From the NCBI GenBank assembly GCA_964036045.1, contig OZ038379.1:81560562-81624561 (forward strand): a DNA stretch of 64,000 bases, read 5' to 3'. The stretch is from Eutreptiella sp. 'Long Island Sound 2002'. Lineage: Eukaryota; Euglenozoa; Euglenophyceae; Eutreptiales; Eutreptiaceae. Below, in pieces: positions 1,112 through 55,859 of the stretch (the first letter of the stretch is position 1; each line of letters begins with the position of its first letter). The position numbers and the translations under genes are program-made. Under the pieces are notes generated by a model. The model was not told the DNA's origin. It saw only the letters and a list, made by a program, of their open reading frames with translations, and made no database searches.

Positions 1112-1225
1112 ACGGGGTTAGAGCACTAGTTATCGCGTGGGTTGTCGCGCGATAACCTAGTTATCGCGAGAGTTATCGCGCGATAACTACTTATCGCGCG
1201 AGTTATCGCTTAGGTCATCGCGCTA
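1112..1225. repeat. GTTATCGCG hairpin array, left E1A
   Basis: Repeated GTTATCGCG and CGCGATAAC words are separated by short spacers and preceded by CTCTAACTAGTTAGA. Each pair can fold into a hairpin. The segment 1010-1225 matches the reverse complement of 48911-49130, so it is the inner part of an inverted terminal region. Confidence 0.8.
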
Positions 1226-1280
1226 CATTTTCTCTTGTTTGATGTTTTCCCTCTTCGCTTTAGCACTCAAATACTCTACA

Positions 1281-3399
1281 ATGGCCCTTGCTGCTGCTGC
1301 CCACGCTTGGTGCGAGCACCATCAAAAGCTCCCTGGGCTCCGTCACCTTGGCGGTCCCGAGGGGTTTACGATGGGTGCCATCAATGTGAGGCGCCCTGTG
1401 GCGACTCATTTTGACCATGGTGTGGACTTTGGACTCATCGTCCATAACTCTCCCTTCATGGCGAACGAGAAAGACCCCCTGGTTCTCACCAGCTACATCT
1501 CCGAGTTGCCAGAGGTAAACCCAGGGGTTGGTGGATTTTTGATCTAGCTGCATCCAGAAGATGTGGACGCGGCGTTGGAGTCCGTCACCGCCCATGCCGA
1601 GAAGGGTGCGGGGACGAAGACGACCCTTTATGTGGGTCAAGAGGAAGAAGAGGAGGAAGTGGAGGGGGAAGCGGAGGAGGTGGTCGAGGTGGGGGCTGGG
1701 AGGAGGAAGGACAAGCTGCACAACCCCCTCATGAGTAGTGTCCAGAAGGTAAGGATCCGACCGGGTAAGGGGAAGGGGAAGTCGGATGGTTGGTTCCCCC
1801 AACCCCTCACCCACAACACCCGGCGGGTCTGCACTGACGACCCCGAAACCAAGCTCCCCATGCACTCCCTTTGCCCCACAAGGGAGTGGGAGCGTGAGTG
1901 GTATGGGGTCACCACTCCCGACATTATCCTCGGGGCAGGGGTGATTCTTTTTCCTTTTTGGGCAACACCCCCCCTTCTTGGGGAGGCGGAGGAGGTGGTT
2001 GCCGCCGAGCCTTTGGGGTCCTTTGAGAGGTACCCCAATGATCTTGTGGTCACCACCAGGGGAAGGCTGGTGGTGAACCACCTGATCGAGCATGATTTTT
2101 TGAGTGCTGTGCAGCTGGAAAGTCTTTTTGACGATCTGCATAGGGTGCCTCTCTCACAGAAGGCACCCATTTTCAATGAGAACCCCCCGATTGTGGGCAG
2201 GCCCCAAGATTGAGGGACCCGCCGCACAGTGTATGGCAACTATGGGGGTGCCAACCACCACAAGCACAACCCCCACAAGCTCCACGATCTGCCAGTCCTC
2301 AAAAGGGTGGCACATCGTGTCATTGAGACTGCGAAGAAGACTGTGGTGGGGGGGGTTGGGTGGAGCTGCACCATCGTGGACATGGCGGAAATTTCGAGCT
2401 ATGACCACACACCCCAGCACCTCCATTGTGATGCCCCCCCCTGCACCATTCCTGCAGGCACATTGATTGTTAATTGCCTCAATATGCTCAGCCATAATCA
2501 TGAGGCCGAGGATGGGTCGAATTTTCTTTTTGTGCCCTCTAGTAGTTCGGGGTTCCGTGACCCTTGGTTGGAGAGCGGTGTGCCATTCAAGAGGGGCGCT
2601 GCCTTTTTTTTTAATGCCCTTGATGTCCACTGGGGGTCAGGCATTCCAAAGGCATCCCCCACTGGTGTGACCCGTCCTCGCCTCATGGCATTTTTTGTAA
2701 TTGACCTAACCCAAGGGCCTAACCTACGCTTCCCAAACCTGCATGTCACCCAGCCCATTAAGCGAACCCAGCTGGGGGCACCTGGTGGCCAGGTTGCCAA
2801 GACGGTCCCCTTTCAGGGGGCGGTTAGGTGTAGGGGAAAGGTCGTGGCCAAGTGCTACGGTTGCGATCAAGCTCTTTTCTGCACCGCACACAAAGATGGT
2901 CTTTGTGTGCCATGCCAGGAGGGGGAGGAGCAAGAGGGGGGGAGGAGGAGGAGTTGGTGGAGGACCCCAATGGAGTCACTATTGAGCAATGTGCACAGTG
3001 CTTGCTCCCGTTGGGAACAACCACCGGGCATTTTTTGTTGTCAGGGTGGGGGGATGGGAGGGAGGTGGTTGCCCCCCTCACTAATGATGAGGTGGGGGGG
3101 GTCGCACGCCACCCTGATCAGTGCCCCTTGGCCAAGGTGCCATACGGAGGCACTGCCCTGGCCTACCTTTCAAGGGGATGTGGGGATTAGGGTGCCACCA
3201 GGGTACATTTTGGTGCTGAGGAAGGGAATGTATGGAGGAGTGGCCAGGGAGGCCCCTCAGGTCGTGGGGGTGGCCTCAGGTGGTGGAGTGGAGGCAAGTG
3301 GGGGATGCAGCCGTCACGGACTTCGTGCGGCCGCACAAGATGAACCTGGTGCTGGACGACCCCAAGAAGGAGGGCAAAGGCATGTGCCCATGTCACCAG
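1281..3399 (+). pseudogene. E1A 2OG-Fe(II) dioxygenase-like gene, first exon region
   Basis: The start at 1281 is chosen because E1B has an ATG at the same place (49304) followed by similar protein. The frame breaks at a TAG (1545-1547), where E1B reads CAG, and again near 2213. After an acidic linker, the C-terminal part has a double-stranded beta-helix pattern: H-C-D at 2424-2432, a distal His in DVHWGSG (2628-2630) and an Arg about 17 residues later (2679-2681). These are the HxD...H...R iron and 2-oxoglutarate ligands. A Cys/His cluster follows (C-x2-C-x4-C-x2-H-x4-C-x2-C, about 2856-2916), likely zinc binding. E1B keeps all of these. The substrate is unknown. Other iron/2OG hydroxylase families remain possible. 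Confidence 0.6.
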
Positions 3400-3640
3400 G
3401 TGTGAAGACTGCCCACTACACCTTGCACTAACCCCTGCTCTAACTAGTTATCGCGCTAGGTTATCGCGTTCTAACTAGGTGCTCTAACTAGTTATCGCGC
3501 TAGGTCATCGCGTCCCAACTAGTTATCGCGGGGGTTATCGCGGGGGTTATCGCGGGGGTTATCGCGTTCTAACTAGGTTATCGCGCGAGTTATCGTGGTA
3601 GTTATCACGTGTGTTTTTTTGTTTCTTTTGCTCTTCCTAG
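3400..3640 (+). repeat. E1A intron filled with GTTATCGCG palindromes
   Basis: The donor is CAG|GTGTGA at 3399/3400. The acceptor is a T-rich tract ending CTTCCTAG at 3640. Between them are about ten GTTATCGCG-type words, including three consecutive GCGGGGGTTATC units and CTCTAACTAG spacers. E1B has an intron at the same place (51416-51632), with the same motif but a different array length. Splicing joins a conserved KGM-C-PCHQ segment to ATVLQLP. Confidence 0.75.
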
Positions 3641-4182
3641 GCCACCGTCCTGCAATTGCCGCGTCTCTTCGTCAAGGAGGCAGCCGAGGCAGCAGCAGCA
3701 GCAGCAACAGGAGCAGCAGAAGCAGCAGGGGCACCGCCCGCCAAGCCGGTGGCGGTCCGTGCGGAGCTGGAGGGGCAGAAGTGGCAGCCGAAGGGGGTAG
3801 CCTGGCGCTGGGGGGAGCCGACGGACGAGGTCTGCCGGCAAGGGGGGACCGGATGGTACCGGCAGGTCACCATCACCGAGAAGGAGGGGGGGGTGGAGAG
3901 GAAGACCAACCTCACCCTCCCTTCCTATGTGTGGGTTGGGGGGGAAACGGCCAAAAGGCCGAATGCTGTTGAGGGGGAAACGGTTGCGGCTTTTTTGTGT
4001 TTGTTTGGGATGGGTAACCCCCCCCAAAGGAAAAATTGTTTTTTGTTGAGGGTGTGCTTTGTTGATGAAGCATCGGGGGGGTACGCTGGGAGGGAAGTGT
4101 AGCAGAAGCTGCACACGCCGGGGGGGCATCCACCAGGTTGGGGGGTTCGAGGCCCCCTAATCTGTGTGTGATGCAACCGCCG
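3641..4182 (+). pseudogene. E1A second exon, 5' part, up to the E2A insertion
   Basis: The exon begins just after the acceptor and encodes an Ala/Glu-rich helix and then a globular stretch (GTGWYRQVTITEKEGG, LLRVCFVDEASGGY). E1B (51633-52170) encodes close relatives. A TAG at 4099-4101 and a frame change in the following G-run break the frame. The exon is cut at 4182 by E2A and resumes at 11161. With E2A and one 2-bp duplication removed, the reading frame is continuous across the junction and matches E1B. I do not recognise the domain family. Confidence 0.6.
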
Positions 4183-4211
4183 TGTACCCTTCGTGAACCG
4201 GCCGTTTGAAT
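4183..4211 (+). repeat. E2A left terminal inverted repeat
   Basis: TGTACCCTTCGTGAACCGG followed by CCGTTTGAA. It pairs with 11125-11160 in inverse orientation and matches the E2B left end at 17478. Confidence 0.85.
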
Positions 4212-4365
4212 CGAGATTCACGGTACCGTGAATTTCACCCAATTTTGTTGTGTTTTGCTCGTAACTTGGTGCTATTGTGTGCTTTTGTCGTGCTACCTTC
4301 GCCCAAAGTAAGATGCAACAAATATGTGCAATTTAGAGGTTTAAAGTCCCCGCATGGTTCAACAC

Positions 4366-4505
4366 ATGTGGTACGATTCGCGTGAATTTGAAATTCACGC
4401 ACCCAGATTCACGCAGAAATTCACGGTAGATTCACAGATTCATGCCAATGTGGAATTCGCACGAATTTCATACGAATTTCGTACGCATTTCGCACGAATT
4501 TATCC
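4366..4505. repeat. TTCGTACGAA palindrome array, E2A 5' region
   Basis: Multiple AATTCGTACGAA, ATTCACG and TTCGCACGAA words lie just upstream of the first coding exon (ATG at 4567). The same words recur in the E2 intron, before the transposase and at the right end. Confidence 0.8.
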
Positions 4506-4566
4506 TCCTTTCCACTCTTTCGCTTTGTCAAAGCTCTCAAAGGCTGCGCATTCTTCTCTTTGAATC

Positions 4567-6486
4567 ATGTCCCAGCAGACTATGTCCCAGCTCGCCAGCC
4601 TGGCCTCGCGCCCCGACCCCGCAGCCGACACCCTCGCCCGCTACCAAGCCCTCCCCGTCGCCCACCATCAATTGGAGGAGGCGACGTACGGGTCGGGGGC
4701 ACTGGGGGTGGATGACGTCGTGGGCTGGGCAGCATCCCTCGATCCCTCCCCCGAGGTCATCCACATCGACATGCGCAGCCCCAGCCACAACTCCTACCTC
4801 GGGGGGAGGGGATGGGCCACAACCTTGTGGAGGGAACTGCGCCGCCAACTCTCCTCCCTTAAATTTCTGCATCTAACCCCTCTCCCCTCCAGTGTTGACT
4901 AGCTCCTCAACTCCATGAGGACTAACCCTGTGGGGAAGCCTCAGGACGCCCACATCCAGGTGTACCCCACCACTAACCTCGTCCATACCCCCCCCCCCCA
5001 CTGCGATATGGTGTGCCTACAGGATCTTGCTGCAGGTGCACCGGCAGACCATTCTTTTTTCCCCTTTTCTTGGCACCTTGCCAACCCCCGGTGGTGGGAT
5101 GATTTGGGCATCGCCCCTTTCCATCCCCCCACCCCCCCCCCAGGTGCACGTCTCCGACGTCACCCACCCCACCTTCTATAGCACAACTTGTTTGCAATGG
5201 TATTGTGGTGCCTCATGCGCCCCCCCCTTCATTTCAAGTGAACCCCCCCTCCGCACCGAACCCCTTCCCGACCCCCCTTTTGGGGTGATGGGCAACCCTG
5301 ACCCCGCCCCCGACAGGGTTGGCCCCTCCCAGCCGCCCCTCAACTTTGTTGATGGGAACGGCTACATTGTGCTTCGGGGGCTTGTGGGGGCACGGCATTG
5401 TGAGGTGGGGTGGAACAAGGGGGTGAAGGCGTTGGGCAGCGGCGACGAAAAAGTCGTCGCAAAAAATTTTGCGCTCCTTTTCAACGCCGCAGGAGTGAGG
5501 AGCAGGCCAAGGATCCTGGGCTCCCCCGGCGTTGGCAAGCAAGAGCAACTTGGGGTCGGGGGTGGGGGGGCCTCTCTTCTAGAAGTTCCACCCCCACCTC
5601 ACCGAAAATGTCCCTCGGGTTGGGGACCTCCACCCAATGACGCCGGGCAGCGTCATTGTGGCGAGTGTGGGGGGTGGGCCGCAGCTCCCCCACACCGACG
5701 TCGCCACCCACCCCGAGGTCCTCTCCCCCCACAACAGGGAGGTCTCAGGTTGCCACCTGAGTAGCTTCCTCTGCTTGTCAGAGGACTACCAGGTGGCGGT
5801 GCAGGCGGGGACGGCCCTGGGGGAGGCGGGGGAGGCGCGCTGGGACACCGTTGAGCTGCATTGGGGGGACATGCTGCTGATGGTGGCCACCAGCCGCCAT
5901 CATGGATTGCCTGCCCTCCCCGACTCCAAGGATGGGCTGCAGGGGGCTCTTTTTAACTTGTGGACCCCGCCCCCCGACACAAACACCACCAGGCCAACAC
6001 AACACACCTGGACCCCACCCCCCCAAGGAGGCCCTGGAGGTTGCTGGGGATTTGTCCAGCTCGGACTTCCCCAGCGTGGACCAGGTGTTGTGGGTGGGGA
6101 AGGGGGCGGTTGGGAGGGTGGGGTTGTGGGAGGGGGATGCTGCTCAGGCCCTCTTCGCCGACCCCCCCGAGTCGGTCCCGGCAGGCCCCCCCACCTACCC
6201 CTTCCACCCCGCCTTCCTCTCCCGGTCGGCCCCGGCCTCCGACCTCGCCGTCATCGAGGTCGGCGAGCAGTGCATGCTGTTCTTCGTGGGCAGCGTGCAC
6301 CAGCTGGAGGTCTGCAAGGGGGACAATGTCGATGCGGAGTCGGAGATCCACTTCGCCATGACCGGCATTGCCCCCCCGGAGCGGCCGACCACGCTGTGGC
6401 ACCTGGTGAACACGGTCCCAGCGTCGCGGTCGCCCAAGTGCGCGAAGACCGGGGCATGGAGCATCACCTGCCCATGCGAGTGCAAG
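4567..6486 (+). pseudogene. E2A 2OG-Fe(II) dioxygenase-like gene, exon 1
   Basis: The start MSQQTMSQLASL is supported by the E2B copy (17841). A TAG at 4900-4902 interrupts the frame where E2B has CAA, so this is a point nonsense mutation. Further frame breaks occur at C/G runs. The segment NFVDGNGYIVLRG (about 5341-5385) resembles the N-terminal strand of phytanoyl-hydroxylase-like proteins. H-T-D at 5691-5699 and a His in TSRHHGL (5898-5903) fit iron ligands. The expected 2OG-binding Arg position is Gln (CAG, 5940-5942) here but Arg (CGG, 19183-19185) in E2B, one G-to-A change. The exon ends at a Cys-rich CPCECK with donor AAG|GTGTGC. The substrate is unknown. Confidence 0.55.
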
Positions 6487-6765
6487 GTGTGCTTGCTTGT
6501 GTGTTTGCTTTGTTTATTGGCAAATTGGACGAAATTCACGTGAAATTCGTACGAAATTCGTGCCAATTTCGTACGAATTTCGCACGAATTTCACGTGAAT
6601 AAATTTGTGTGAATATTCTGGAAATGTGAAATTCGTACGAAATTCGTACGAATTTCGCACGAATATCTGTGAATTTCGTCCAATTTGCTCCTTTTGTTCT
6701 TGCATTGCCTCCTGTCCACTCCCTCTTTCTCAATTCGTGCCTGGCACACTTCCCCACATCTGCAG
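6487..6765 (+). repeat. E2A intron with TTCGTACGAA palindromes
   Basis: The donor is at 6487 (GTGTGCTTGC) and the acceptor is a pyrimidine-rich tract ending CATCTGCAG at 6765. The core 6533-6680 is dense in AATTCGTACGAA and TTCGTGCGAA words plus a long inverted pair around ATTCTGGAAATGTGAAATTC. E2B has lost this intron within a larger deletion. Confidence 0.75.
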
Positions 6766-8308
6766 GTCCCGTTCACCGCGTGGTCGCCGGATATTTGGCA
6801 CCACACCAAGTGCAAGTACAAGCCCCGGCCCCGTTTGCCCGAGGAGCACGCCGAGCCCCACGAAGGCCCCGGTGGCGACCAGCCCGCAGGCACCGGTGGC
6901 GGACGGCCGCCGAGCGAGGCCGGCAGTGTGCGCAGTGAGGGGTCGCGGCGCTCTGGACGTTCGTGAGGCAGCGAGGCCAGCACCGCCACGGGGCATGTGG
7001 CGCGCGAGGTGGTGGTGCCCATGCCGTCCCGCGACGAGTTGGGCGACGCCCACACCGACCCCCCCCTAGACCGGGTCACCTTGGCCGCCAGGCAGCCGGA
7101 TCCGGCCCGGACCCAGCAGGTGCCGCCCGGGCCCGACGGGCGGCAGCGGCACCTCAGTGCCGTGTGGGACATGGTCTTGGATTCCCGGGGGGTGCAGGGC
7201 ACATTCCGCATCTCCTTCCCCTGCCCCATTGTGGTTAGGGGGGGGGCCAACCTGCCTTCGGGGCAGGAGCTGGTGGTCATGTTTGCCTACCGGCTTGTGA
7301 GTGGACACTGGCGGGTGCAGACCGGGGTGTCGCGGATCGGGGAGGAGGGGACGGTGAGCACGGCTGGGGTTTTTGGGCTGAATGTGCTCACGGGTTGGGA
7401 GCAGCGGAGGCCGGAGTGGGCGGACGTGGCATGGCTTGCCATGCGCGTCCATGTGGGGAGACAGCGGAACATGGGGGTGGCTGGCGTCATTGACGTCGAG
7501 GAGGACGAACCCCCCACCCGCAAGCGAAAAGGGCGCCCCCCCCAAGGGGACACCGAGCCCCCCCCCCCCCCCAAAACCCGCGCGTACGGCCACCCCAACG
7601 GAGCGGGCGGTGCGGGCGGAGCAGGCAGACCCGGTGGCGGGGCGGGGGCAGAGGGGGGTGGTGCAGGAGTGGGTGGACCAGCAGCGGGTGAGGGCGTGGG
7701 AGGCACGCGCGATCAGCGCGGAGGCTGCCAACCGCGACCTCGAGGCCCGTCTGTCCAAGGCCAACGAGGACAGGCGGGACTCCGAGTCGCGGTTGGCGGA
7801 CGTCACCAAGGAGCGTGACCGGCTGGCCACCAAGGTGAAAACTCTTGAGCACGACTTGGCGACGTTGCGCAAGGCAAAGCCGGCGGCACAGCCAGCAGAG
7901 GCAGTGGAGAGGTCTGAGGGTGCCGACGCCCCCCCGGATGACAAGGGGGGGGCCAATGCCGCCGGTGTCAGGTACCTTCTGGCCGGCGCACAGGCGTGGC
8001 ATGCCCAGGCCGAGGCGTGCGCCGGCCAGATGTTGGCAGTGTCCACCGTCCTGCGGATGGCCATGATGGCCAGTGGCAAGCAGGTCGATGTGGACAGCGT
8101 GGCCCCCGACGCCCCCAAGGTGACTGCCGCATTGGAGGAAGTGTGCCGGCAGTACCCCCCCCACCGCCTCACGTCGGCGGCCATGGACCCCTCCTTTGTG
8201 CAGGCGGTGGGGGAGCAGAGCTCCCAGGGGTCCGCTAACCGGAGCTCTGCTCCGGGGGGGGGGGGGGGTAGCTCACCCTTTACCCTCGGGACCACCTGTC
8301 CTTTCTAA
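6766..8308 (+). pseudogene. E2A AT-hook and coiled-coil protein, second exon
   Basis: The exon encodes TAWSPDIWHHTKCKY, low-complexity Pro/Gly stretches, a globular segment (GTFRISFPCPIVVRGG, 7198-7245) and a basic RKRKGRPP patch (about 7518-7541) that fits an AT-hook, a minor-groove binder for AT-rich DNA. A heptad-rich coiled coil follows (RLADVTKERDRLATKVKTLE, about 7791-7850). The C-terminal part is helical and ends in a Ser/Gly tail. The frame changes at a C-run near 7560 and a few other places. The same order of basic hook then coiled coil is seen in E1A (11161-11705). A DNA-binding, oligomerising role is inferred. Confidence 0.5.
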
Positions 8309-8640
8309 CCACCACAAATGTTATCTTGCCCCCCCCCCCCCCCAAGCATGGGCAGTTTGACCAACATGTGGGGCACTCCCCCCCCACTGTGCGAAATTTT
8401 CTGCACCACTGTTTGTACATTATTCGGGGTATGCTATGCCCCCGGACCTGTTTGCGATATTTTCTGCGGCACTGTTTGTATTTTATTTGGGTTATGCTAT
8501 GCCCCCTAACGTGTTACACTGCTGACTGAGTTCTAGCCGGAATGACAGCCACTGGAGTGGGTGTGTGATAACCCATGAGCACCATCCTGTGCTTGCTTTG
8601 TGAGGGTCAACGAGGGCAGAAGGGTGAGGCTTCGGCAGAA
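8309..8640. repeat. Non-coding spacer with tandem duplication
   Basis: Two tandem copies of a roughly 63-bp unit (about 8389-8451 and 8452-8510) contain ATTTTCTGC, CACTGTTTGTA and TATGCTATGCCCCC. E2B keeps a single diverged unit near 20186-20240. There is no coding signal. Confidence 0.6.
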
Positions 8641-8649
8641 ATTCTGTGA

Positions 8650-8835
8650 CAGTCATGCGAAATGAGCACGAAATTGGTACCAAATTCGTACGAAATTCGT
8701 ACGAATTTCGTGTGAATTTCGTGCGAATTTCACATTTTCAGAATATTCACACAAATCCATTCAATTGAAATTCGCACGAAATTCGTACAAAATTCGTACG
8801 AATTTCGTGCGAATTTATGTGAATTTTTTCGAATT
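8650..8835. repeat. TTCGTACGAA palindrome array before the E2A transposase
   Basis: A dense array of AAATTCGTACGAA and TTCGTGCGAATTT words forms two large imperfect palindromes separated by TTCAGAATATTCACAC. It sits 100-280 bp upstream of the transposase ATG, so it could act as a promoter-proximal or subterminal binding site. Confidence 0.75.
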
Positions 8836-8934
8836 GCATGCGAATCACAGTAGAGACAGTTGTCTGCGGGAGGGGGATGGTAGAAACCTTGCGATGACTG
8901 CCTCCCCCATTCAAAAGGTCTTGTATCTCACACC

Positions 8935-10697
8935 ATGCCGCGGCCCAAGGAGCCATTCCATCTGCTAGCGGATCGTACACGACGGCGGCGCCTACAAGAG
9001 CTCCAGGAAGTTGTTACCAAGGAGCTTGCAGCACCCTACACCGTCAAGTACCTGCCCGACACCGGGCAAACAGTGCTTACCCCCGAAAGAAGAGTTGTAG
9101 CCACCTTCCAGCCTGAGCCCACCATGGAGGAGAGGTTGATTATGGCCGTCCCGAGGATCCGGTCATTGCACCTCTCTAGGACGGAGTCCCGGTACCTAGT
9201 GGGGAGCATGACGTACGGTGTGGTATGGGACCAGGTGTACGGCATGCTTCGGCAGCTAGCGTTGCCGGAGTCCCGGGCGTTCACCGCCTATACGGGAGAC
9301 GACGCGGCCATCAATGGTGCGGCTTGCTACCTACCTGACCGCATCGGCCACCTATTCAAGTGTCGACCACCCCCACCCTCGGACATCATGCAGCCCGGGG
9401 ACCGACGGCTGCATTGGTTGCCTATCGCGGTGGACAGTACATCGAGGCATGAGGCCTCGTACGTCCATTGCACGCTTGGTGGCACCGCCAACCCCAACCA
9501 ACTATCTAGTTGGTGGCTACTAGGGGGCGGTGAAAAGTGGGAGACCCTCTACGCGGCCTCCCAAGAAATTGATTTTGATGATGAGTTGCGCAAGGCCGCA
9601 ACCGTAAGTTTTAAGGATACGAGAGGGAACGATAGGCAGTCCCTTTTTTTTCTGTGTGCAGATGGTAAATGACAGGTGCTCAGGGGGGCTGCCAAAACTG
9701 GAAGGCAAAATCCCCTGATGCCACTGTGTGTTGGGTCTGCATGCGTAACCGTGCTCTGTGCCTTGCTACCTTTGCTACAGCAAGTGCGATAGACGGCAAC
9801 TGGGAACCGGCCGTTGCCATAAATGCTCTATATAGGACCATTACGAGTGATAGGCGAGTGCCTGATTATGGCCTGCATGGGGTCTTTTGTGTCCTGTTGT
9901 GTGCAGTCAACGGGACACGGGACCTAGTTGTACAATTGACAGGGAAGGCACCGGCCACTGTGGCACGCACCATGCTGCAACCGGTTCTAGATGAGGCACG
10001 GCTTGCTGCACGAACTTGCACCCTTGCCTCATTAAATAATGACAAGGAAGACAGCAAGGGGAAGGTGAGGATGGAGTGTGCTGCTGCCATCCATTTCATG
10101 CGGAATAGGGGTTGGGAGAAGATAATAGATGCTTGCCTAGAGCAGCCTAGTGTGAGGCAGCATCAAGTAGGGGGAAAAAGTTGGGAGTCGGTGTGCAAAA
10201 CGTGGTGGGAGAATTTTGCAAGCATGTGTGTATACGCGTGGCGTTCCGCATGGTTCTCCGGGGCCGACTTGGGGCGGCTCCGGAACCATAGCATAGCCAC
10301 GGGCGCTGCCCACAATGAGCTCCAGTGGGGCAAACTTCTGTGGACGCATCTTTGGATCGACCACATGTATCATTCTGCAAAGAAGTGGAGAATCTTGTCA
10401 ACGTTCTCCTGCTTTGCCATGGAGGGAAGTCACCGCAGGCTGAAGCGCATGTTGCGCAACAGCGGGGGCCGAAGCCTCCTCCGGGGGAGACTAGGGGTGC
10501 AAGTGGTTGTGGACAACCACACCATTGACAATAGCCTTTGGTTGCATGGGTGGGATGCGACCAAAAGGGCTCAACATGGGCAAGGGCCCATAAGTGTACA
10601 AACGTATGCAAGCCGCACAAGAAGACGGCTTCTAACCGACATGCAGCACCTTCAGACTCTACAGCGGCGGTTCCGGTGCCGCAAGAGACGGACATGA
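8935..10697 (+). pseudogene. E2A DDE-like transposase (one frame break)
   Basis: ATG at 8935 (MPRPKEPFHL) is conserved in E2B at 20528. Two open segments (8935-9672 and 9669-10697) join at a one-base slip. Motifs in order are AVDST (Asp at 9433-9435), CADGK (about 9655-9668) followed by MTGAQGG, CWVC...C (about 9738-9772), PDYGLHGV (about 9861-9884) and EGSHRRLKRMLRNSGG (from about 10423). The same series occurs in the E1 and E6 proteins. I read the first Asp, the DGK Asp and the late Glu as a candidate DDE triad with an inserted zinc knuckle. It is not assignable by eye to a named superfamily. The protein would be about 585 aa. Its job is presumably to cut at the TGTACCC termini. Confidence 0.6.
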
Positions 10698-10797
10698 GAT
10701 CACCTTACCAACCCAGACCATTGTTGGCTGTGACCGGGGTGCATGCTGGGGGGCCTGCTAGGGGTGTGAGGACAAATCAGGGGGTGCACACCGGTAT

Positions 10798-11160
10798 CAT
10801 TTGTGTAAAATCACGTGAATTCACGTGAAATTCGTACGAAATTCGTATGAAATTCGTGCGAAGTTCGTGCGAATTTCGTACGAATTCACGTGAATTCACG
10901 GCTGTGCATCGGCTACAGGCTTGCCGGGTTCCGGCACCTCTCGTTTTGGGCACGGTTCGGACATGATGGATGCTTTTGGGGCGGGACTCTCATTGGATGA
11001 TGCGTAACAAAGTTGGGGGAGGAATTTTGGCCCCTCAAAGCCCTCAGAATGAACCAAGAATATGGCATTTTCCCCCAAAAACCTCAAAATTTGGGTAAAT
11101 TCACGTGAAATTCACGCAATTATTCAAACGGCCACTTAACGGCCGTTCACGAAGGCTACA
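10798..11160. repeat. E2A right end: palindromes and TIR
   Basis: TCACGTGAATTCACGTGAAA, AATTCGTACGAAATTCG and related words lie at 10808-10902, followed by a spacer, then TTCACGTGAAATTCACG and the inverted terminal repeat ending at 11160. The E2B equivalent is 35850-36195. Confidence 0.8.
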
Positions 11161-11705
11161 CGCATGGGTCCAATCGTATGCGCCCAAGCGAGGAAGGCCC
11201 ACCAAGCATACGAAGCGGAGGGCTGAGGTGGTGGTCGTTGAGGCGGAACCCCCCCCCCCCCCGCTAAGGGTAAGGCCCCCACCCCTTCCCTCAAGCCGTC
11301 GAAGGTGCCCAAGGTGGCGGCCCAGCCCCCCCCTGAGGCCCTTGATGTGGAGGCCTTGGGGGCCAGTGTTGCCACCCTCGTGACGGACGCTTGCCAGACT
11401 TTGGTCGCGCAAGCGGCCGCCACGGGGGTCCAGGCCACACTTGCCAAAGCTCGGGCGGCCTACCACAAGTCGGCCTTGGCGAAGGCCGAAAAGGTCCAGG
11501 GCAACACTCAGCGTGCCTTGGACTGGACCCCCAACCTTTCCGCCAAGAGGGGGGAGGGGTTGGAGACGGTTAGGGGGGCCCTGAGAGAGGCCGAGGAGGG
11601 CAGGCGGAAGACAGAGGTGGAATCGGCGGGGCTGAGGGTGGAGGTGGAGGCGCTGCATAGGAGGGGGGGTGACCTCCAGAACCCCCTGGGGGTGGATGAG
11701 GCGTA
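11161..11705 (+). pseudogene. E1A AT-hook and coiled-coil segment (continuation after E2A)
   Basis: The exon interrupted at 4182 resumes here with WVQSYAPKRGRPTKHTKRR (from about 11164). GRP within a basic patch is AT-hook-like; E1B has the same segment with KAGRPTKH. After a poly-Pro run with a probable length slip, a long helical region follows (TLVTDACQTLVAQAAATGVQ to LRVEVEALHRRGGDL, about 11371-11680), rich in Ala, Glu and Lys as in a coiled coil. A TAG at 11704-11706 closes the frame. The likely role is DNA binding and oligomerisation. Confidence 0.5.
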
Positions 11706-11706
11706 G

Positions 11707-12450
11707 GTGCGCAGCCTCACCTCCACCCTCACTGCCACCTCACCACCCAGTAGGGGCTGGGTCCGCCGTCAGTGTAGCGGGAGCAGGAGTGGGAGTCAAA
11801 GACTCCTGGGTTCGCTAAGGGGGTTGCCTAAGTGCGTTTTTCGTGGGGAGGAGCGATATGGGGCCCAAGTGGACATTTGCCACTTCGGCGTAGTGAGAAG
11901 CGGACACCCCAACCCCTCTAATTTTAGGGCGACCCACATGGCTACTGCTGCCTTGAGGCCTTCCCTCACCCCCTTGTTTGTAGAGCTGAATGAGTATTGC
12001 ACTTGGAATGCTCCACCATGGTTCACATGGTGTAGCATCCAAGTTGTTCGCCCCCAAGGGACGGACACCATGGGCGTTCACGCCCGTTGGCGTGATTGGG
12101 CGCCCATGGCGCTAATTGTGTGTGTGGGGTTTTTCACGGGGGGTGATTTTTGGGTGGAGAGTGGTGGCCTGCCGAATCCCTCCCGGAGAGACAAAAAGCG
12201 GCACACCTGTGTGTGCAAGGGTAGGGCGGTGGAGGGTTGGGCATGCAAGGCCACACCCCAAGCCCCGATGTTGTTCAACACCCGGGCACTACACGCTCCA
12301 TTGCCATGGGAGGGCGAGCGATGGAGCGTGATTTTTTGCAGTGCAGGGGGGAGTTGCTGCAATGCACGCCTACGTGGCGGCAGCAGCTTGTGGCCATGGG
12401 TTTTAGGGTGCCCAATGCTTGCTCTAACCCCTCCAGTTAGTGCAGACTAA
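11707..12450 (+). pseudogene. E1A TET/JBP-like 2OG dioxygenase domain
   Basis: The protein reads through FRATHMATAALR, WCSIQVVR, VCVGFFTGGDFWVE and LHAPLPWEGERWSVIF. A strand, the G-x-F-T-G-G-x-F turn, the distal His (12292-12294) and R in GERWS (12319-12321) follow the TET/JBP pattern of nucleic-acid base hydroxylases. The metal-binding H-x-D should lie at 12079-12087 but reads H-A-R, so the Asp is lost and this copy is probably inactive. Shifting frame in the T-run near 12335 continues with WRQQLVAMGF, typical of the C-terminal helix in this family. E1B is truncated before this region. A generic 2OG hydroxylase is the alternative. Confidence 0.55.
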
Positions 12451-12665
12451 CCTGTGCTCTAACTAGTTATCGCGGTAGGTATCGCTCTCTAACGGGGTGC
12501 TCTAACTAGTTATCGCGCCGGGTTATCGCACTCTAACTATTGATCGCGGGGGGTTATCGCGCGGGTTATCGCGCGATAACCTGGTTATCGCGGGGGTTAT
12601 CGCGTGGGTTATCGCGTGTGTTTTTTGAGCCCTTGCCTCAAAACCCTCCCTCATTTCCTGCCCAG
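12451..12665 (+). repeat. E1A second palindrome-filled intron or intergenic array
   Basis: About ten GTTATCGCG-type words with CTCTAACTAG spacers lie between the dioxygenase domain and the transposase exon. The acceptor is a pyrimidine-rich tract ending CTGCCCAG at 12665. The donor is not certain. Confidence 0.7.
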
Positions 12666-14400
12666 GCCCTCTTATTCTTCATGGATAATGCTGCTAATGA
12701 GGCCCTCAGTCCCGTGAATTCGGGTAAGGTGCGGCGGTACACCGATTGGCAATGCCCCAAGGCCGGGCGGCGGCGGTTGAAGGCCATTCAGCTGCTGGTG
12801 CCAGTTCTTTTGGGGGATCCCAACATTGTTTGTGGCACCAACTTTGTTCAAGTGGTGGGTCGTGCACTGCCCTGTCCGCCCCACTTGGTGGCCATCGTGC
12901 ATTCATAGCTTAGGAGCATGATGCCCTGAGCATGCTATGCATGGCATGCAGCATGCATCTTTCCCAGCAGGCCCTTTTGCGAATGCCCCGCCGTTGTACC
13001 CAACGGGACCTAAGCACCGTTCGGCAACGGATCATGCCCTACTTTCCCCAAGCAACCATTGTAAGGTCTACCACAGGCCGCAATAGGGCAGCTGTCCATG
13101 TGCCTTTGCTGTCAATTGTACATAACGCGATATATATGGCCCGAGTCACTGGGAACCCCCCCCCTAGTGGCGTTGCCATTGTTGTCATTTCCGTTGATTC
13201 GACTTCCTTGTGGAAGGCATCCTCTACCCGTGCGGATGTATGGGTCAATGTATGGGGGGAGGCAAAGTATGCTTCGAAGGTGAAGCTATGGCCCTCATGG
13301 TTTTGCATGGATGGCCGAGATGAACAGGTCTTTTTGAGCAGCCTGGACATCTCCGCCAACCTCAACCAAGAGGTGAGGGATGTGGAGGAGGACGTTGTCC
13401 TCTTTCAAAACCAATTTTTGATCTGCACTGTCATTTTGACAGGGGATGGGAAGGGGATGGAAGCAATGGGGGGGGCTGGGTCTAAGTGTTGGTTGTGCAA
13501 AGACCCCAATGGTATTGTTGAGCAAATGGGGGTGGAGTCCACCTCAAGATGGGTCGCATTTTTGAGATGTGTGACCCCTGATAGACGGCCGGCGGACTGC
13601 CAACATGCAGCATGCCGCATTCTAAATGGCATTGCAAAGCGCACTGAGACCACCATTTAGGCCCTCCCCCCTGGTACCCTTGGTAAGGCCCAAGCTCTTG
13701 CAGCTTTGCAGGCCTTCAAACAAGCCCTAAAGGATGAGACCTCAGGCATCCCTCTGAGGGAACGTCTCCCCTCGGCCTCAAGGGCCGAGGAAAAAGATTT
13801 TGATCTTACAAGCACCAAAGTTTTCCTAACCTCCCCACCTTCCAAAGGCAATTTGTGGATTGCCTCAAAGATCATGTCCCTGCAGTGAGGACCCCCGTTG
13901 GACCTCCATTATTGGTTGTTGTGCATGTCATGGTAAAATGCATTGAGGGTTTGTATGAGCTTTGGAGGTTGAGGGAGGTGTACAGTCTAACCCAAGGGTA
14001 ACGCCACCGTGCGTTGACCACAAAATTTTCAAAAGCTTGGGGAGACTCAGGTTGGTCCCCCACCAGGTGGATCCATTGGTGCTTGGCACATTCCACTTTT
14101 TTGCCGAGAAATGGAGGAACGTTTTTCAGTTTTCCTCCATCCCAACGGAGTATCGGCATGGGCCTTACAAGAGGAGGCTCAAAAGTTGTTTCAAGGGTTG
14201 GTCCTTGGTGAGGCCCAGTATGTCCCTCCGCCACATGCACCATTGCATGTCCATGAACGCCCTGGAGCAAGGGCTTTTGGGACTTGAGGCAGCCAAGGCC
14301 TCACACATCGACGACTTTGTACGAAGAAAGACCATGAATGCTTTGTGCCAAGTGCTTTGTGTTGCTTGTCCTAGCGAGGGATGGAGGAGGGGTGCGCGAT
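12666..14400 (+). pseudogene. E1A DDE-like transposase, decayed
   Basis: The exon starts ALLFFMDNAANEAL. The central open segment is 12932-13660 and later parts are in shifted frames to about 14400. The motif series matches the E2 transposase: VISVDST (Asp at 13196-13198), LTGDGKGMEAMGG (Asp at 13445-13447), KCWLCK (from 13484), a VHVMVKCIEGLYEL segment near 13925 at the position of PD-GLHGV, and EYRHGPYKRRLKSCFKG from about 14149. Candidate catalytic residues are the two Asp and the last Glu. The CWxC pair probably binds zinc. The named superfamily is unclear. At least three frame breaks make it non-functional as it stands. Confidence 0.55.
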
Positions 14401-14701
14401 AACTACCCGCGATAACTACGCGATAACTGAGTTATCGCACAATAACTTGTGCTCTAGCTAGTTAGAGCAACGTGCTCTAGCTGTCTTCTAACCCACTACC
14501 AACTCTGCTGTAACTCTTTGACCCCCCCCCAAAAAAAACCCCTACGATGAGGGTTGTGTGGGGAAAGAAAGGGGATGGGGGGTTTTTGAGGGTGCCGAAT
14601 CCATTTTTTTAGGTGGTTTGCCCCAAAATGCTAGGTGGGTGTTCCGGAAATTGTGCTCTAACTAGGGGTTTCCGCACCACGCCCTAGAACGCTGCATCCC
14701 A
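14396..14701. repeat. E1A right end: hairpin array and terminus
   Basis: CGCGATAACT repeats lie at 14396-14450, followed by CTCTAGCTAGTTAGAGC, a purine/pyrimidine-biased spacer, and the terminal motif at 14669-14701 (CCACGCCCTAGAA...CATCCC). The same terminal motif ends the element finishing at 49240. Confidence 0.65.
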
Positions 14702-14708
14702 TTGCTCC

Positions 14709-15265: not shown

Positions 15266-15267
15266 AA

Positions 15268-41598: not shown

Positions 41599-41689
41599 GG
41601 TGTAGGGCGGCATGAACCAGCAAGGACAAGCAAGGACAAGCAAGTACAAGAAAGGTTGATGCCTGAGCGATTTCTGTGTGCCTGTGCAG

Positions 41690-41800: not shown

Positions 41801-41913
41801 GTTTTCATAATTGTCAAAAACTGGCAGAAATGGCAATTTTTCCAAAAAACCCCCGGTGGACAAAAAAAAAACTCACCCCAAGGGTGTTGACCCCCCCCCA
41901 ATTTTGAACGAGT

Positions 41914-42963
41914 ATGGCCCGTGGGGACCCTAGCAAGAGCAAAATCCGTTCTTATTTCATAAAACCATTTATGATGAACAAAATTACCTTTCACACAGGC
42001 GCCAAGGGCGGGGACGAGACGATGGTCCCCCACAAGGGGAAACGGGCAGGCCCCCTGCGGCAGTTCATACCCCGGAAGCCGCATAGTACGGGGGTCAAGT
42101 TGCATATGCTAGCGGACGCCGTGCACCCCTTCGTCACGGACATTGTTTTTGTACGCCGGCCCAAAAGTGAAGAAATTCGTGGGGCGCTTGGGGGTGGCGG
42201 GCGATAACAACGCTAGCACCATAGGTGGGGGGATTTACTGCCCAAGGGAAAAGCCCTTGTGGCAGATTCTTATTTTGGTAGCCCCGTTTCTCATATTGTG
42301 CAAACGCGACACTGAATTGGTCCCCAAAATGGGTGCTGCAACCCCGGCCAGACAGGTTTCGGAGGGGCATGGTGTAGATGGAGCCTATAGTCTATGGGTG
42401 TTTAAAAACCCAAAGGTGGGGTCTAAACCCCCAAGAGTATTTCTGTTTTTGAGTAATACTATGTTTGACACAACCATACCCCCCATAGAGGTGGGTACAA
42501 CCTGCGGACTGTAGTGGGGGCGTACCGGCAATTCGCCAACGGAGTTGACACGGCCAACCAAATGGCCTTGCAACATCGGGAGACACGCTGCTTCACCTCG
42601 TGGAGTAAGCCGACCCGTGCTTTTCTCTTGAGGTACGCAATGGTGAACAGTTTCACCATTGTACGGAAAGCACCTTCGTCGCCAAGGACAAATCCCTGTG
42701 GGATTTCCAGTGGGATTTATTGTCCTCTATGGTTAGTAGTGAGACCCCCAAGGTCCACTATGCAACCAAGGTTGCCTCCTGTGGTACGTGCAGGCATTGT
42801 GGGCGACGTACCCTGTTTGAATCTGCGGCATGTGGAGTGCCTCTGCACAACTCTAAATGTTTCGGGGAGTGGCATGCAGCATGTCAAAGGTCACGCTGAG
42901 TCGAACGTTGCCATAGGTAAATTGTTGCCTCGGTTTTGTACTGTTTTGGCTGGTAGGGGATAG
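41914..42963 (+). pseudogene. piggyBac-like transposase remnant
   Basis: The segment 41914-42207 contains GGDETMVPHKGK followed by LRQFIPRKPHSTGVKLHMLA, matching the first catalytic Asp region and the K-x-G-x-K-x-x-x-L-A-D core of piggyBac-family (DDE_Tnp_1_7) enzymes. The segment 42514-42963 contains QFANGVDTANQMALQHRETR followed by RAFLLRYAMVNSFTIV, matching the late G-V-D-x-x-N/D-Q and the downstream hydrophobic helix. The second catalytic Asp region (usually D-N-F/W-F-T) is not recognisable in 42190-42500. A GGTTACAC array lies immediately downstream, so it could belong to E3 and have been separated from it by E4. It is broken by frame changes and not functional as it stands. Confidence 0.6.
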
Positions 42964-42964
42964 G

Positions 42965-43215
42965 GGTATGAGGTTACGCATTGGGTTACACAGTGGGATA
43001 GCACAATACAATTCTTTGTGGCCGGAGGGGACCGTTTACACAAAATGTGTTAACGGTTACGTGTCCGGGTACACATGGCAAACAAATGAGGTCTCTCACA
43101 CCGGTGACACCGGTTACACAAGTGTGTAACCGGTTACATGTCCGGTTACACATTTCATGTGCACGGGTGACACAAGTGTGCAGGGGTTACACAACCGGTT
43201 ACATAGCCCTTCACA
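42965..43215. repeat. GGTTACAC array downstream of the piggyBac-like remnant
   Basis: GAGGTTACGCATTGGGTTAC, GTTAACGGTTACGTG, CACCGGTTACACAAGTGTG, TAACCGGTTACATGTCCGG and ACAACCGGTTACATAG words, the densest such array in the window. Confidence 0.8.
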
Positions 43216-43276
43216 AGGGGTGAGACAGCCAAAAGTAGAAAAATTGGTGTTTCTTAAAGGGAAAAACAGGGGTAAA

Positions 43277-48910: not shown

Positions 48911-49065
48911 CGAACAAGCGCGATGACCTACGCGATGACTCGCACAATAAGTAGTTATCGCGCGATGACTAGCGCGACAACTCGCGCGATAACTGGGTTA
49001 TCGCGCGATAACCCCCGCGATAACCAGTGCTCTAACCCCGTTCTAACTAGTTAGAGCACAAAAAG
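48911..49065. repeat. GTTATCGCG array, inverted relative to the E1A left array
   Basis: CGCGATGACT, CGCGATAACTGGGTTATCGC and CCCGCGATAACC words, then CTAACTAGTTAGAGC. The reverse complement of 48911-49130 matches 1010-1225. Confidence 0.8.
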
Positions 49066-49303
49066 ACCAAGTCGCACGAAGTGCAAAACCAGCAATACCG
49101 AGCAAACGAGACAAGCAAGGCACATTCTTGCATCATAGTGCACCCATGTAACATGTGAAATTCCGGGTTCCAACCATATTAACAACCCCCAAAATTGGGG
49201 GGGTTCCGTGCCACGCCCTAGAATAGCACATCCCAACCCCCCGCGCGGCATTTTCTCTTGTTCCATGTTTCTTCTCTTCGCTTTAGCTGTCAAATAATCT
49301 ACA

Positions 49304-51415: not shown

Positions 51416-51632
51416 GTGTGAAAAGTGCGCACTGAACCCTGCTCTAACCTTTGCTCTAACTAGTTATCGCAGCAGTTATTGCGCTCTAATTGGGTGCTCT
51501 AACTAGTTATCGTGCTGGGTTATCGCGTTCTAACTCGTTATCGCGGGGGTTATCGCGGGGGTTATCGCGCTCTAACTAGGTTATCGCGGTAGTTGTCGCG
51601 TGTTTTTTTATTATTTCTTTTGTTCTTTCCAG
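51416..51632 (+). repeat. E1B intron with GTTATCGCG palindromes
   Basis: Donor and acceptor (TTCTTTCCAG) are at the same codon as in E1A. It has seven or eight GTTATCGCG-type words, shorter than the E1A intron. Confidence 0.78.
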
Positions 51633-52524: not shown

Positions 52525-53575
52525 ATGCCTTTCTCTCGGGACACCCTTACCGAGCTTAACATGACGCTCGTGCGTTTGAGTGGGGCCAAGAGTTTGCGGG
52601 ACCCTTTGGTCTCCCAACTCCTTGGTGAGTGGGTGGCCTCATCCCCTTTGGCCCGGGCCCGATGGTCCGAGGCCATGGAGGTTGGCTACCCCTCCCTTAT
52701 TCGTACTAAGCAAGTGGAGGCGGTGAAGCAATATGCCTCCCACCTCTTCCCGGCCCCGGACCTCATCGGCCTCCTCATGGACTTGAACGTCCCCAAGCTC
52801 GGCTTCCGGCACGTGTCGGAGTACATGAGCCGCCGTGGGTCGGCCTACATGGCCGCAACGGGCCTCCCGTTCCCCCGCCCCATTTCCACTCGGGATACGT
52901 TCACGGACACGTGGAAGGAGTTGGTCACCCCCCTTGACCTACGGCCACCCGTGTCCGTCCCCAATCCCCCCGCGAGTGGGCGCTCTTGGCCGCTACCCTC
53001 ATGGGCCCGGTACGTTCAATCACGCCCATTGCTAGTGGACACCATCGATTGGACAAGGCCCCTTACCTTCATTGTGCGTGGGGATGAGCACCCGTGCGCC
53101 GCTGGTAGTTGGACCCATTTCTCCATTGGGCTCCTCAACCACGGCGCACAGGGCTGCACACCGCGTACTAGTGGGTGATAGGGATGGCCGTGTGCGGGGA
53201 CAAGGACATGGCGGCACTAGCAACGATATGGGCCGATAACTTCAAGGTTTGTGGCCCATTCGTTGTTTGTTAATTTCTGCATTAATTTCTGGAGATTAAG
53301 ATCCAGAATTCGGTTAATATTAACGCCGACTGAAGAATTAACTTAATATTAATCTCGAGAAATTAATGTAAATATTAACACATGGTTTTTTTTGGAGGTG
53401 TTGAAGTCTATTGATGACCGCAAGGGGTTCTAGTGGCCAACACCTAGGGTGCCGGGTGAGCTAGCCATTCGGGAGGACCACCCCCTAGTGCACCGCTTCA
53501 TTGGCGCCTCTAGATGGCCCATAGTGGGCTCTACATATAAAGTATACAACATCAATGCACGTTTTCTTGTATGGA
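52525..53575 (+). pseudogene. E5 transposase-like gene
   Basis: Exon 1, 52525-53246: MPFSRDTLTELNMTLVRLSG, LPFPRPISTRDTF, DWTRPLTFIVRGDEHPCAAG and FSIGLLNHGAQG, a clear homologue of E4 exon 1. Intron 53247-53397. Exon 2, VLKSIDDRKGF, a TAG at 53433-53435, then [20 protein letters not shown] up to the CA tract at 53590. An in-frame TGA also occurs at 53176-53178. The remainder of the protein is missing. The start could be 52501 instead. Function as a transposase is inferred through E4 only. Confidence 0.5.
53247..53397 (+). repeat. E5 intron made of TTAATATTAA palindromes
   Basis: 151 bp. Donor AAG|GTTTGT, acceptor TTTTTTTTGGAG. TTAATTTCTGCATTAATTTC, GGTTAATATTAACGCC, CTTAATATTAATCTC and TTAATGTAAATATTAAC words. 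The donor hexamer and insertion codon equal those of E4. Confidence 0.75.

Positions 53576-53703: not shown

Positions 53704-53780
<77 letters not shown>
53590..53780. repeat. (CA)n microsatellites
   Basis: Two CA runs (about 53589-53668 and 53699-53779) are separated by GGTAAAAATGGCAATACCCC. Apparent open frames of His-Thr or Cys-Val repeats are by-products. Confidence 0.95.
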
Positions 53781-53783
<3 letters not shown>

Positions 53784-53975
53784 ATGAGGTCGGCACCCCC
53801 CCACACACCCAACCCCTCCCACACACATCCCTCCTTGCTCCTTCCTCTCTCCTCCCGTTGCCCTTGCGCTTAATATTTGAGAGGGTATTCGCTTTCTTTT
53901 CACAGGTTATTTTTTTGGGAAGATTGAAAATTGTTGAAGATCGTTGAAAATTGAGCAAGGAAAAAAAGGTTATAG

Positions 53976-54011
<36 letters not shown>

Positions 54012-55859
54012 GTGCATGCATGTGTGTCCATTGTGGCTAGTTTCTAGGTTTTAGAATGCCCCAAAGGAGATAAAGGGGCTAGTTTAGGGTTATGGTTCCT
54101 AGGGCTGTGGTGCATGGGTGTCTGGGTTCGTGGGGTTGCGGTGTGTGGCCCTATGGTACGTCTCGGTGTGGTTTCCAGGGTTGTGGTGTGTGGGGGTGTG
54201 ATGTTTGGGGCTGTGTTGTGTGGGGCTGTGGTCCCCCCCCGGCAGTATGCAACCCCCCCACACCCCTAAAGCCCCCCCCCCCCCCGACGCCCCCCCCCCC
54301 CGGGTGCGTGAAATGGTGAGGTGGCTGTGCGTTATGCACTTTTTTTCACGTTAATTTTTGCGTCGCTTTCGTTCATTTTTCGAGATTAATATTAACGCTT
54401 GCGTCGATTAATAATTAATATATTAATTATTTTTTTGGCTCGATAATATTAATTTCCACAAATTAGTCCACGGGGTCAAAAATTAACTTTTGGTTTTTTG
54501 TCTTTTTATCGGACTGCACACCCCTAACATCCCACAGCCCCACACCACAAACCCCAAACCCCCACAACGCCACCCCCCACAGCCCCAAGCACGGCAGCCC
54601 CAAAGGGCACTATGCTCGGCATACCATGACCCCACAGCCCAACAACCCACAGCCCCACACCCCGCAGCCCCAAGCACCACAATCCAAATTGTTACAGCAC
54701 GGCACGCCACAGCCCCACGCCCTACAACCCAACAAACCATGGCCCAACACACCACAGCACCCCACCCCACAGCCCCATGCCCCACTGCCCCACACAGCAA
54801 AACCGCACACACAGCCCCATGCAACACACTTGTGCACAGCACAGCCCCGAACACACCGCCTTACATCCCACAGCCCCACACCACGCAGCTCCACACCCCA
54901 CAGGCCCACACCCCACAGGCCCAAGCACCAGAGCCTAAAGCATGCCACAGCCCCACACCCTGCAGCCCAACACACCACAGCCCTACACCACACAGGGCCA
55001 CACGCCACAGCCCACACACCACAGCCCCACACACCACAACCCCACAGGCCACGGCTTCACACACCCCAGCGCTGTACACTACATTGCCGCACCCCACAAC
55101 CCCACACACCCTAGCCGGACACCCCAAAGGCCCACACACCACAAGCGCACACACCAAAGCCCCACATTGCCCCCATTGTTTCCGTTTAATTTTTAGACCG
55201 GCGGTGTTAATTTCTTGAGATTAATATTTAATTTTTGGACCGGCGTTCCAAATATTAAAAATTAACCGATAATATTAACTTACCAGAAATTAAAAAGTCG
55301 TCCCAAAAATTAATTATGCCGCCCAGTCCCTCCTGCACTGATTTTGTTCACCTACAATGCACCACAACCCACCACAGGGCTGCAATGCACCCCCACAGCA
55401 CCCCCCCCCCCCACCCCATGCAACAGCCCCACACACCACAGCACCTGACACCAAACCCCACACATGTCCACCACACACCCATATGCCACAGATGTACCCA
55501 CCACAACCCCACACCACAGCCCCACAGACCACAACCCTAGAAACCTTAGCCCCACACACCAAAATCCTAGAAACCACTCCCCCGCACAGCACAGCCCCAA
55601 ACATCACACCTCCACACACCACAGCCCTAGAAACCACACCGAGACGTACCATAGGTCCACACACCATAGCCCCACGAACCCACACACCCACACACCCCAG
55701 CCCTAGGAACCATAACCCTAGACCCCATAGGCCCAAACATCACACACCACAATACCAAGGGGGGGGGGGTGGCATTGCCAATGAAACCTGAACTGGCCCC
55801 TTTATCTCCTTTGGGGCATTCTAAAGCCTAGAAACTAGCCACAATGGACACACATGCAT

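Follow-up and report, generated by a model that had tools for sequence, protein, structure and literature searches.

The 64,000-nt window (the whole stretch of DNA analysed here) contains DNA transposons of several families, named E1 to E6, in nested copies: E2a lies inside E1, and E2b and E4 lie inside E3 (Table 1). The left part of E1 is 86% identical to a copy at 49242-52172 (E1b), and a neighbouring E1 copy runs uninterrupted across the E2a site. As judged by its DDE_Tnp_1_7 domain, E3 is piggyBac-like: PF13843 matched 42007-42204 with 25.5 bits (cut-off 22.4), and a second, collinear piece at 42469-42960 reached 15.8 bits, which is below the cut-off. Apparent introns in gene B of E2 were rejected as decayed coding sequence, the relatives of this gene being open throughout.

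Table 1. Elements, genes, introns and word arrays in the window.
Feature	Position	Strand	Remark
E1 left part	1006..4182	+	continues at 11156-14701, split by E2a
E1 left array, word GTTATCGCG	1129..1222	+	~12-bp pitch; 58 bp before gene A start
E1 33-nt intron	1515..1547	+	no words (negative case); also 49535-49567
E1 intron 2	3400..3640	+	11 words, all same direction; same intron in 8 other copies
E2a, in E1, ends TGTACCCTTCGTGAAC	4183..11155	+	apparent 2-bp target duplication
E2 left array	4452..4502	+	64 bp before gene A
E2 gene A intron	6487..6765	+	array 6527-6681, 16 word matches, self-palindromic
E2 array between genes A and B	8670..8817	+	117 bp before gene B
E2 gene B, transposase	8935..10694	+	broken frame
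E2 right array	10827..10888	+	
E1 right part	11156..14701	+	
E1 array before gene B	12466..12616	+	64 bp before gene; also seen in L037, L038
E1 gene B, broken transposase gene	12681..14380	+	homologous to E2 gene B
E1 right array	14395..14439	-	mostly opposite direction
E3 first part	14700..17477	+	outer border approximate
E3 array	15119-15218		within first part
E3 introns with arrays	15382-15533 and 16457-16976		within first part
E2b, E2 copy in E3	17478..36195	+	interrupted at about 21408-35440
E3 array before transposase gene	36600..36746	-	36 bp before gene
E4, in E3, terminal inverted repeat GCCCTTGG...	37250..42006	+	by eye, borders approximate
E4 left array	37272..37326	+	3 matches; 38 bp before its gene
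E4 intron 1	38088..38237	+	forward words then reverse; read-through in 19 relatives
E4 intron 2	39340..39492	+	forward then reverse words
E4 intron 3	40410..40569	+	forward then reverse words; 3' border uncertain
E4 right array	41693..41978	+	
E3 last part, piggyBac-type transposase pieces	42007..43250	+	PF13843
E3 right array	42972-43204		within last part
E6 word cluster ACGCAAA	44317..44484	+	74 bp before transposase gene; weak, about 3-fold over following gene
E1-type end with array	48917..49148	-	inverted, adjoining E1b
E1b intron 2	51416..51632	+	array of 9 words
E5 intron 1 with E5 words	53247..53397	+	protein position as E4 intron 1; junction by eye
E5 downstream word cluster	55186..55313	.	

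The transposases of E1, E2 and E6 are related by sequence comparison (E1 versus E2 gene B: hhalign E 4.6e-7, probability 92.6%; the E6 transposase likewise to that of E2). A 587-aa relative of E2 gene B (P0001, 94% identical) has a predicted RAG1/Transib-like fold, a verdict that covers the families in the comparison list. The E2 transposase is therefore predicted to have a RAG1/Transib-type catalytic fold, and E1 and E6 are placed with it by homology. RAG1/Transib elements make a 5-bp target duplication and carry a CACAGTG-type terminal heptamer. In contrast, the ends of E2 read TGTACCCTTCG (TGTACCC) and lack such a heptamer, and its apparent target duplication is 2 bp (CG in E2a, GT in E2b, TG in locus L008; three of three, by eye), a length that depends on where the element end is set; an empty-site search in E1d found no anchor. 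P0001, P0086 and P0092 had no Pfam match up to E 0.1, and a PDB profile search with the E2 transposase returned only one unrelated chain (E 0.4), so that E2 also differs in having no match to solved chains. No homology between the E4/E5 and E2 transposases was found by hhalign on a two-sequence alignment (probability 0.1%), nor were relatives found in viral contigs, a set that left out the window's own genome.

The first-pass annotation had proposed that each family carries its own palindromic word, arrayed at its termini and in introns and not in exons. Counting own-word matches with mismatches allowed, we found 77 in the introns of the elements (2,023 nt) versus 2 in coding sequence (21,328 nt; odds ratio ~420, its p-value being nominal because of overlapping matches and related copies), 70 in 3,161 nt of element ends and 33 in the 1,089 nt of gaps preceding second genes. 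The contrast between introns and coding parts recurs in E1 (11 in 241 nt versus 0 in 5,531), E1b (9 in 217 versus 0 in 2,606), E2 (16 in 279 versus 0 in 5,223), E3 (13 in 672 versus 1 in 3,300), E4 (24 in 463 versus 1 in 3,777) and E5 (4 in 151 versus 0 in 891), and words of other families gave a chance-like background of 1 match in introns and 15 in coding parts. All nine long introns found contain own-word matches; introns were called from splice signals and paralogs rather than RNA, some were noticed because an array broke the frame, and array-free introns may be missed. A word-blind detector recovered 16 of 23 E1-E4 arrays (satellite clusters left out) and picked up some tandem repeats; it found no E5 or E6 array, 53500-60800 not being in its listing. 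Matches to GGTTACAC at 23014-25277 were dropped as part of a 103-bp tandem repeat.

The proposed layout thus holds for E1 to E4 and for one E5 intron, and with introns bearing the words it is more than ordinary subterminal repeats, as had been claimed. For E6 the case is weak and includes no demonstrated intron: the 7 near-matches in the 361 nt upstream, compared with 9 over the 1,440 nt that follow, lie little above the background of its own gene. Palindromy is confined to the words of E2 and E5 (TTCGTACGAA, TTAATATTAA), and the 33-nt E1 intron is an exception to the rule for introns. Array pitch is mostly 11-13 bp, and geometry depends on the family, being direct in E1, dyadic in E4 and palindromic in E2.

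Moreover, there is a third array site, new with respect to the earlier annotation, upstream of each gene. Own-word matches precede 11 of 11 gene starts (nine genes, two of them in a second copy) at distances of 36-279 bp, as raw counts; in nine of the eleven the distance is 36-117 bp. Upstream of the E5 gene there are only two matches.

The words recur in other copies of the same elements. Genome-wide, pairs of E1 words spaced at 12 bp were counted 11,637 times and their reversed form 0 times, and the E2 word 18,557 times against 2,006, while exact E1-E5 words numbered 0 in 16 arbitrary 10-kb stretches, a small sample (160 kb). Three random loci (L011, L014, L018) contain rows of other words, which we regard as leads only. 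All six E1 stretches fetched from word-pair matches have the pairs in the same intron, and among nine copies compared this intron holds 9-12 words in each with none in the flanking exon; six of the nine were chosen through their words and test placement only. E1a and E1b, found by homology, and E4, followed by protein read-through, show independently of the words that these are kept. Beyond the window, the E4 evidence consists of this read-through: among 120 listed of 675 matches, all 19 E4-like proteins that match the splice-junction pattern and extend at least 12 residues from the pattern start show the word past the junction, the pattern having been written after inspection of protein tails. 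Of the proteins that do not fit the pattern, P0202 continues beyond the junction with no word peptide and P0147 is frame-shifted. For E2, two array peptides were seen in 1 of 17 proteins with at least 10 residues before the junction, an uninformative result as the other proteins mostly begin just before it. Furthermore, in an E2 relative (L025), most of whose transposase pieces are 57-77% identical, the E2 end is retained, as are near-copies and a single exact copy of the E2 word, whereas E4 and E5, 54-55% identical, fill a common intron position with different words.

Of the three functions suggested in the first-pass annotation (binding sites, RNA hairpins and base-modification targets), predicted binding sites fit best, given a pitch of mostly 11-13 bp, a family-specific word and the same words at ends, promoters and introns. 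We propose that the words are laid out in arrays to which an element protein binds, and that the element reuses them as operators at its promoters and as roadblocks in its introns, a reading that we consider about as probable as its negation. Each word would be the DNA site of its own element's protein, either the transposase or the product of an accessory gene, and sites spaced by about one helical turn would allow several molecules to bind side by side. The end arrays would mark the element for transposition, and those just upstream of genes would serve as operators. Transcription would run through the arrays of the long introns, and protein bound there could block RNA polymerase and lower transposase output with the protein sequence untouched. 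This proposal rests on the near confinement of each word to the non-coding parts of its own element, on the pitch and the genome-wide E1 and E2 counts, on the same E1 intron being filled in nine copies and words preceding 11 of 11 gene starts, and on the retention of end and word in L025 set against the differing E4 and E5 intron words. There are precedents: TNPA on the subterminal repeats of Spm/En blocks RNA polymerase according to the cited extract (PMC2613891), an internal transposase site is described as restraining piggyBat (PMC11707139), and P elements possess internal transposase sites in the cited section (PMC7776569). On the other side, the evidence for selection on the words is mixed, the geometry varies by family, and the arrays could have spread passively.

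Passive spread is the core of the alternative that survives best, although we think it unlikely: the sites would serve end recognition only, and internal arrays would be by-products of duplication, gene conversion or end-fragment insertion into introns and gaps, tolerated there as non-coding. In E2a the intron array matches the A-B gap array in inverted orientation (84% over 166 bp including spacer), and it resembles the gap array of L008 (86-89%) more than L008's own intron array (80%), which suggests exchange between arrays; the intron and gap arrays of E1 are also 79% alike. Word conservation speaks partly for the same alternative. Compared with six copies, word columns, spacers and exons of E1b differ by 0.071, 0.205 and 0.213 and those of E1a by 0.119, 0.175 and 0.177; for E1d the values in this order are 0.124, 0.148 and 0.092, exons differing least. 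Within the neighbourhood, between E1a and E1d, the intron shows the opposite direction (words 0.146, spacers 0.087) and the gap near equality (0.088 and 0.110). Picking columns as words biases toward conservation, and the signal of selection is mixed, not clean. However, placement is regular at all 11 gene starts, in all nine long introns and at fixed places in E1 copies, and a passive process is not expected to hold 9-12 words while exons differ by up to 21%.

An introner-like origin, in which small non-autonomous end copies inserted in genes became introns, is improbable. The E4 introns resemble a left end plus a right end, and introners with inverted repeats are described in the cited extract (PMC9860276), which likewise links transposon ends to introns. 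Here, in contrast, the word is carried by introns of the transposon's own genes, and as the intron stands at one position in E4 and E5 but holds a different word in each, it looks older than the word that now fills it. Inspection by eye revealed no target duplication at the splice sites, and exact words were absent from the small sample of arbitrary DNA.

We consider it slightly more improbable still that the arrays act as RNA hairpins joining splice sites or regulating splicing. The forward-then-reverse order in the E4 introns would suit hairpins, and against 60 shuffles folding was in excess in the introns of E2 (z -10.5), E4 (introns 1 and 3, -4.0), E5 (-3.0) and E1 (-2.8 and -3.7), versus -0.1 to -1.4 in four exon controls. 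Yet there is no excess in the E3 introns (-0.2, -1.1), E4 intron 2 (-1.2) or the E4 right end (+0.6), the intron arrays of E1 and E3 run almost wholly one way, the same words stand upstream of genes and at ends, and the 33-nt E1 intron has none; hairpins as the shared factor were therefore rejected. Targeting by a base-modifying enzyme or by host silencing (small RNA, methylation) is the least credible alternative. HTD...RHHG-like residues in E2 gene A are reminiscent of 2OG oxygenases. TET/JBP-bearing transposons are described in fungi in the cited extract (PMC12730594). The accessory-gene pieces (gene A of E1 and E2), although broken in frame, gave no Pfam model above cut-off, the words of E3, E4 and E5 lack CpG, one shared modifiable motif was rejected on inspection of the words, and such targeting would leave one word per family unexplained.

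The proposed operator arrays resemble known systems in part. As described in the cited extract, Spm/En, a CACTA element, has element-specific short end repeats that differ between related elements and are bound by its protein TNPA, which can stop RNA polymerase; our elements would match this in a binding that is so far predicted, but the Spm/En arrays are described at ends, whereas here they also fill introns and precede each gene (PMC2613891). The CACTA terminal motif was absent from the two elements inspected, E2 (TGTACCC) and, by eye, E4 (GCCCTTGG), unlike in Spm/En. Like E3, piggyBat has a piggyBac-type transposase, and its internal site near the left end is described as lowering activity; its three motif pairs all lie no more than about 120 bp from one end, whereas E3 has arrays of 6-12 word matches, two of them in introns (PMC11707139). 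In the cited section the P element has a few internal transposase sites of 10 bp close to its ends, where it also carries 11-bp repeats; its intron control works through alternative splicing of the third intron rather than through repeated words (PMC7776569).

It is conceivable, though we lean against it, that independent superfamilies (piggyBac-type, RAG/Transib-like and the E4/E5 group) converged on a self-operator system in which each uses its own end-recognition word as a control code inside the element, at every promoter and in all long introns. When a family splits, ends and introns would change their word jointly, so that each family represses only itself. Subterminal repeats are usually read as transposition machinery. 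If such a word governs transcription from promoters and introns as well, a transposon would bear a readable regulatory code, and the binding specificity of each transposase could be read from its word. Families that are related but differ in word (E4 and E5; E1, E2 and E6) would then show a change of specificity that all sites follow, and with E1 and E2 words present in thousands genome-wide, there would be enough of them for a statistical test of the coevolution of protein and site.

In the window, transposon copies lie nested within one another. That the E2 copy E2a is inserted in E1 is shown by self-comparison and by a neighbouring E1 copy, which runs uninterrupted through the insertion site; E2b and E4 are judged to lie within E3 from the sequence and from a piggyBac-type reading frame after E4. 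The six short words, one for each transposon family E1 to E6, were located and then scanned for with mismatches and orientation taken into account, and the elements were split into coding, intron, gap (before the second gene) and end compartments. A family's own word gave 77 matches per 2,023 nt of intron (introns being predicted from splice signals and paralogs, and several spotted through an array-broken frame), 70 per 3,161 nt of end and 33 per 1,089 nt of gap, versus just 2 per 21,328 nt of coding sequence with E6 excluded. The words of other families matched once in introns and 15 times in coding parts, a chance-like background, and sixteen 10-kb stretches at round coordinates contained no exact E1–E5 word. 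The first-pass annotation, which had placed the arrays in termini and introns and outside exons, is borne out in the window for E1–E4 and for one intron of E5. Its statement that internal introns carry words holds for all nine introns found that exceed 33 nt (E1 twice, E2 one, E3 two, E4 three, E5 one) and fails for the 33-nt E1 intron, wordless in both copies examined. A detector blind to the words recovered 16 of the 23 E1–E4 arrays in the window (E1 6/6, E2 3/7, E3 3/5 with the satellite excluded, E4 4/5) and none of those of E5 and E6.

Genome-wide recurrence (2.28 Gb, 2,205 contigs) is firm for E1 and partial for E2 and E4. The pair GTTATCGCG-N3-GTTATCGCG occurs 5,868 + 5,769 times versus 0 for the reversed pattern, and 100 listed sites form 35 arrays. 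Among these, three elements have the full order of left end, intron, gap and right end, with spacings of 2.35–2.41, 2.26–2.31 and 1.87–1.90 kb (window E1: 2.32, 2.05 and 1.93 kb), and others have part of it. Eight stretches taken at array coordinates, and therefore a test of place and not of presence, had all six expected introns between both E1 exons, with 10–12 words each and none in the exon, and both expected gaps before gene B, the transposase gene. With E1a, E1b and the neighbouring E1d, the same intron is filled in nine copies (9–12 words; six of the nine word-selected); E1d and L036 each have one mutated splice site. In the case of E2, TTCGTACGAA occurs 18,557 times versus 2,006 for a control that lacks the two CpGs and is an imperfect match, and the word-selected locus L008 has four arrays resembling those of E2a. 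Two further loci (L005, L006) have only the E2 left end (88–89% identical) and internal E2-word arrays in common with E2, their interiors being different and repeat-rich; they are perhaps non-autonomous derivatives that retained internal arrays. The translated E4 word was present in 19 of 19 proteins selected by junction pattern among 120 listed of 675 matches, and missing from P0202, which falls outside that pattern.

A third site had been missed by the first-pass annotation. Own-word matches lie 36–279 bp upstream of 11 of 11 gene starts examined (nine genes, two also in a second copy; start codons picked by eye), the yardstick being the coding own-word rate and not shuffled sequence. The nearest matches are at 36–117 bp for nine starts, at 217 bp for E5 (two matches) and at 279 bp for E1b, where they come from an inverted end adjoining an insertion. 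The layout proposed for E5 and E6 is thinly supported in both; E6 has 7 near-matches in the 361 nt upstream versus 9 in the 1,440 nt after.

Neighbouring features (window positions unless a locus is named)
Feature	Position	Remark
E2 gene A	4567-6486	HTD...RHHG residues, reminiscent of a 2OG-Fe(II) oxygenase; no Pfam match above cut-off
E2 intron array	6520-6688	Inverted relative of gap array, spacer too
E2 gap array	8671-8835	
103-bp tandem repeat	23014-25277	GGTTACAC inside many units
Direct repeats	45803-46029, 48603-48827	At the reverse-transcriptase locus
Reverse-transcriptase gene	46012-49249	RVT_1, E 7e-9; 120-bp flanking inverted repeats, right arm adjoined and overlapped by inverted E1-type end with word array
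Long repeat-rich block	53590-60740	CA runs, inverted arms, overlapping very long open frames
Word row CGCTAGAAC	L011:1880-1933	Possible further family; some 11-12 bp spacings; arbitrary stretch
Word row GTTAGAAATCG	L014:4885-4988	As L011
Word row ACGCAAAAA	L018:9574-9724	As L011

Specificity, placement, spacing and recurrence of the words are observed; passive spread of the arrays is an alternative to a regulatory reading of the internal ones. Sequence exchange seems to have taken place between the intron and gap arrays of E2, and such swapping between positions is what passive spread would yield; conservation of word versus spacer is mixed. Variable hairpin strength and an array geometry that differs by family also count against the regulatory reading, and the evidence from E5 and E6 is thin. 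No description of intronic word arrays was found in the portions available of the Spm/En and piggyBat sources or in a literature search limited to partial texts.

The E2 relative L025, whose transposase pieces are mostly 57–77% identical, still has the E2 end along with a single exact copy of the E2 word and some near-copies, with no full array by the detector. Intron 1 lies at the same place in E4 and E5 with different words inside, each that of the rest of its own element, and the homologous transposases of E1, E2 and E6 go with three words. Words therefore appear to stay the same within a family and to change from one family to another, in ends and introns together. This pattern, which is not proof of binding, is as expected of a protein–site pair. 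In the regulatory reading, an element protein would bind the word, its molecules lying next to one another at intervals of roughly one helical turn. For restraint by internal sites, the available text on piggyBat, whose activity such sites hold back, offers a precedent (PMC11707139); for a roadblock by a bound element protein, that on Spm/En does, where bound TNPA causes early transcript termination (PMC2613891). Promoter arrays may serve as operators and intron arrays as roadblocks.
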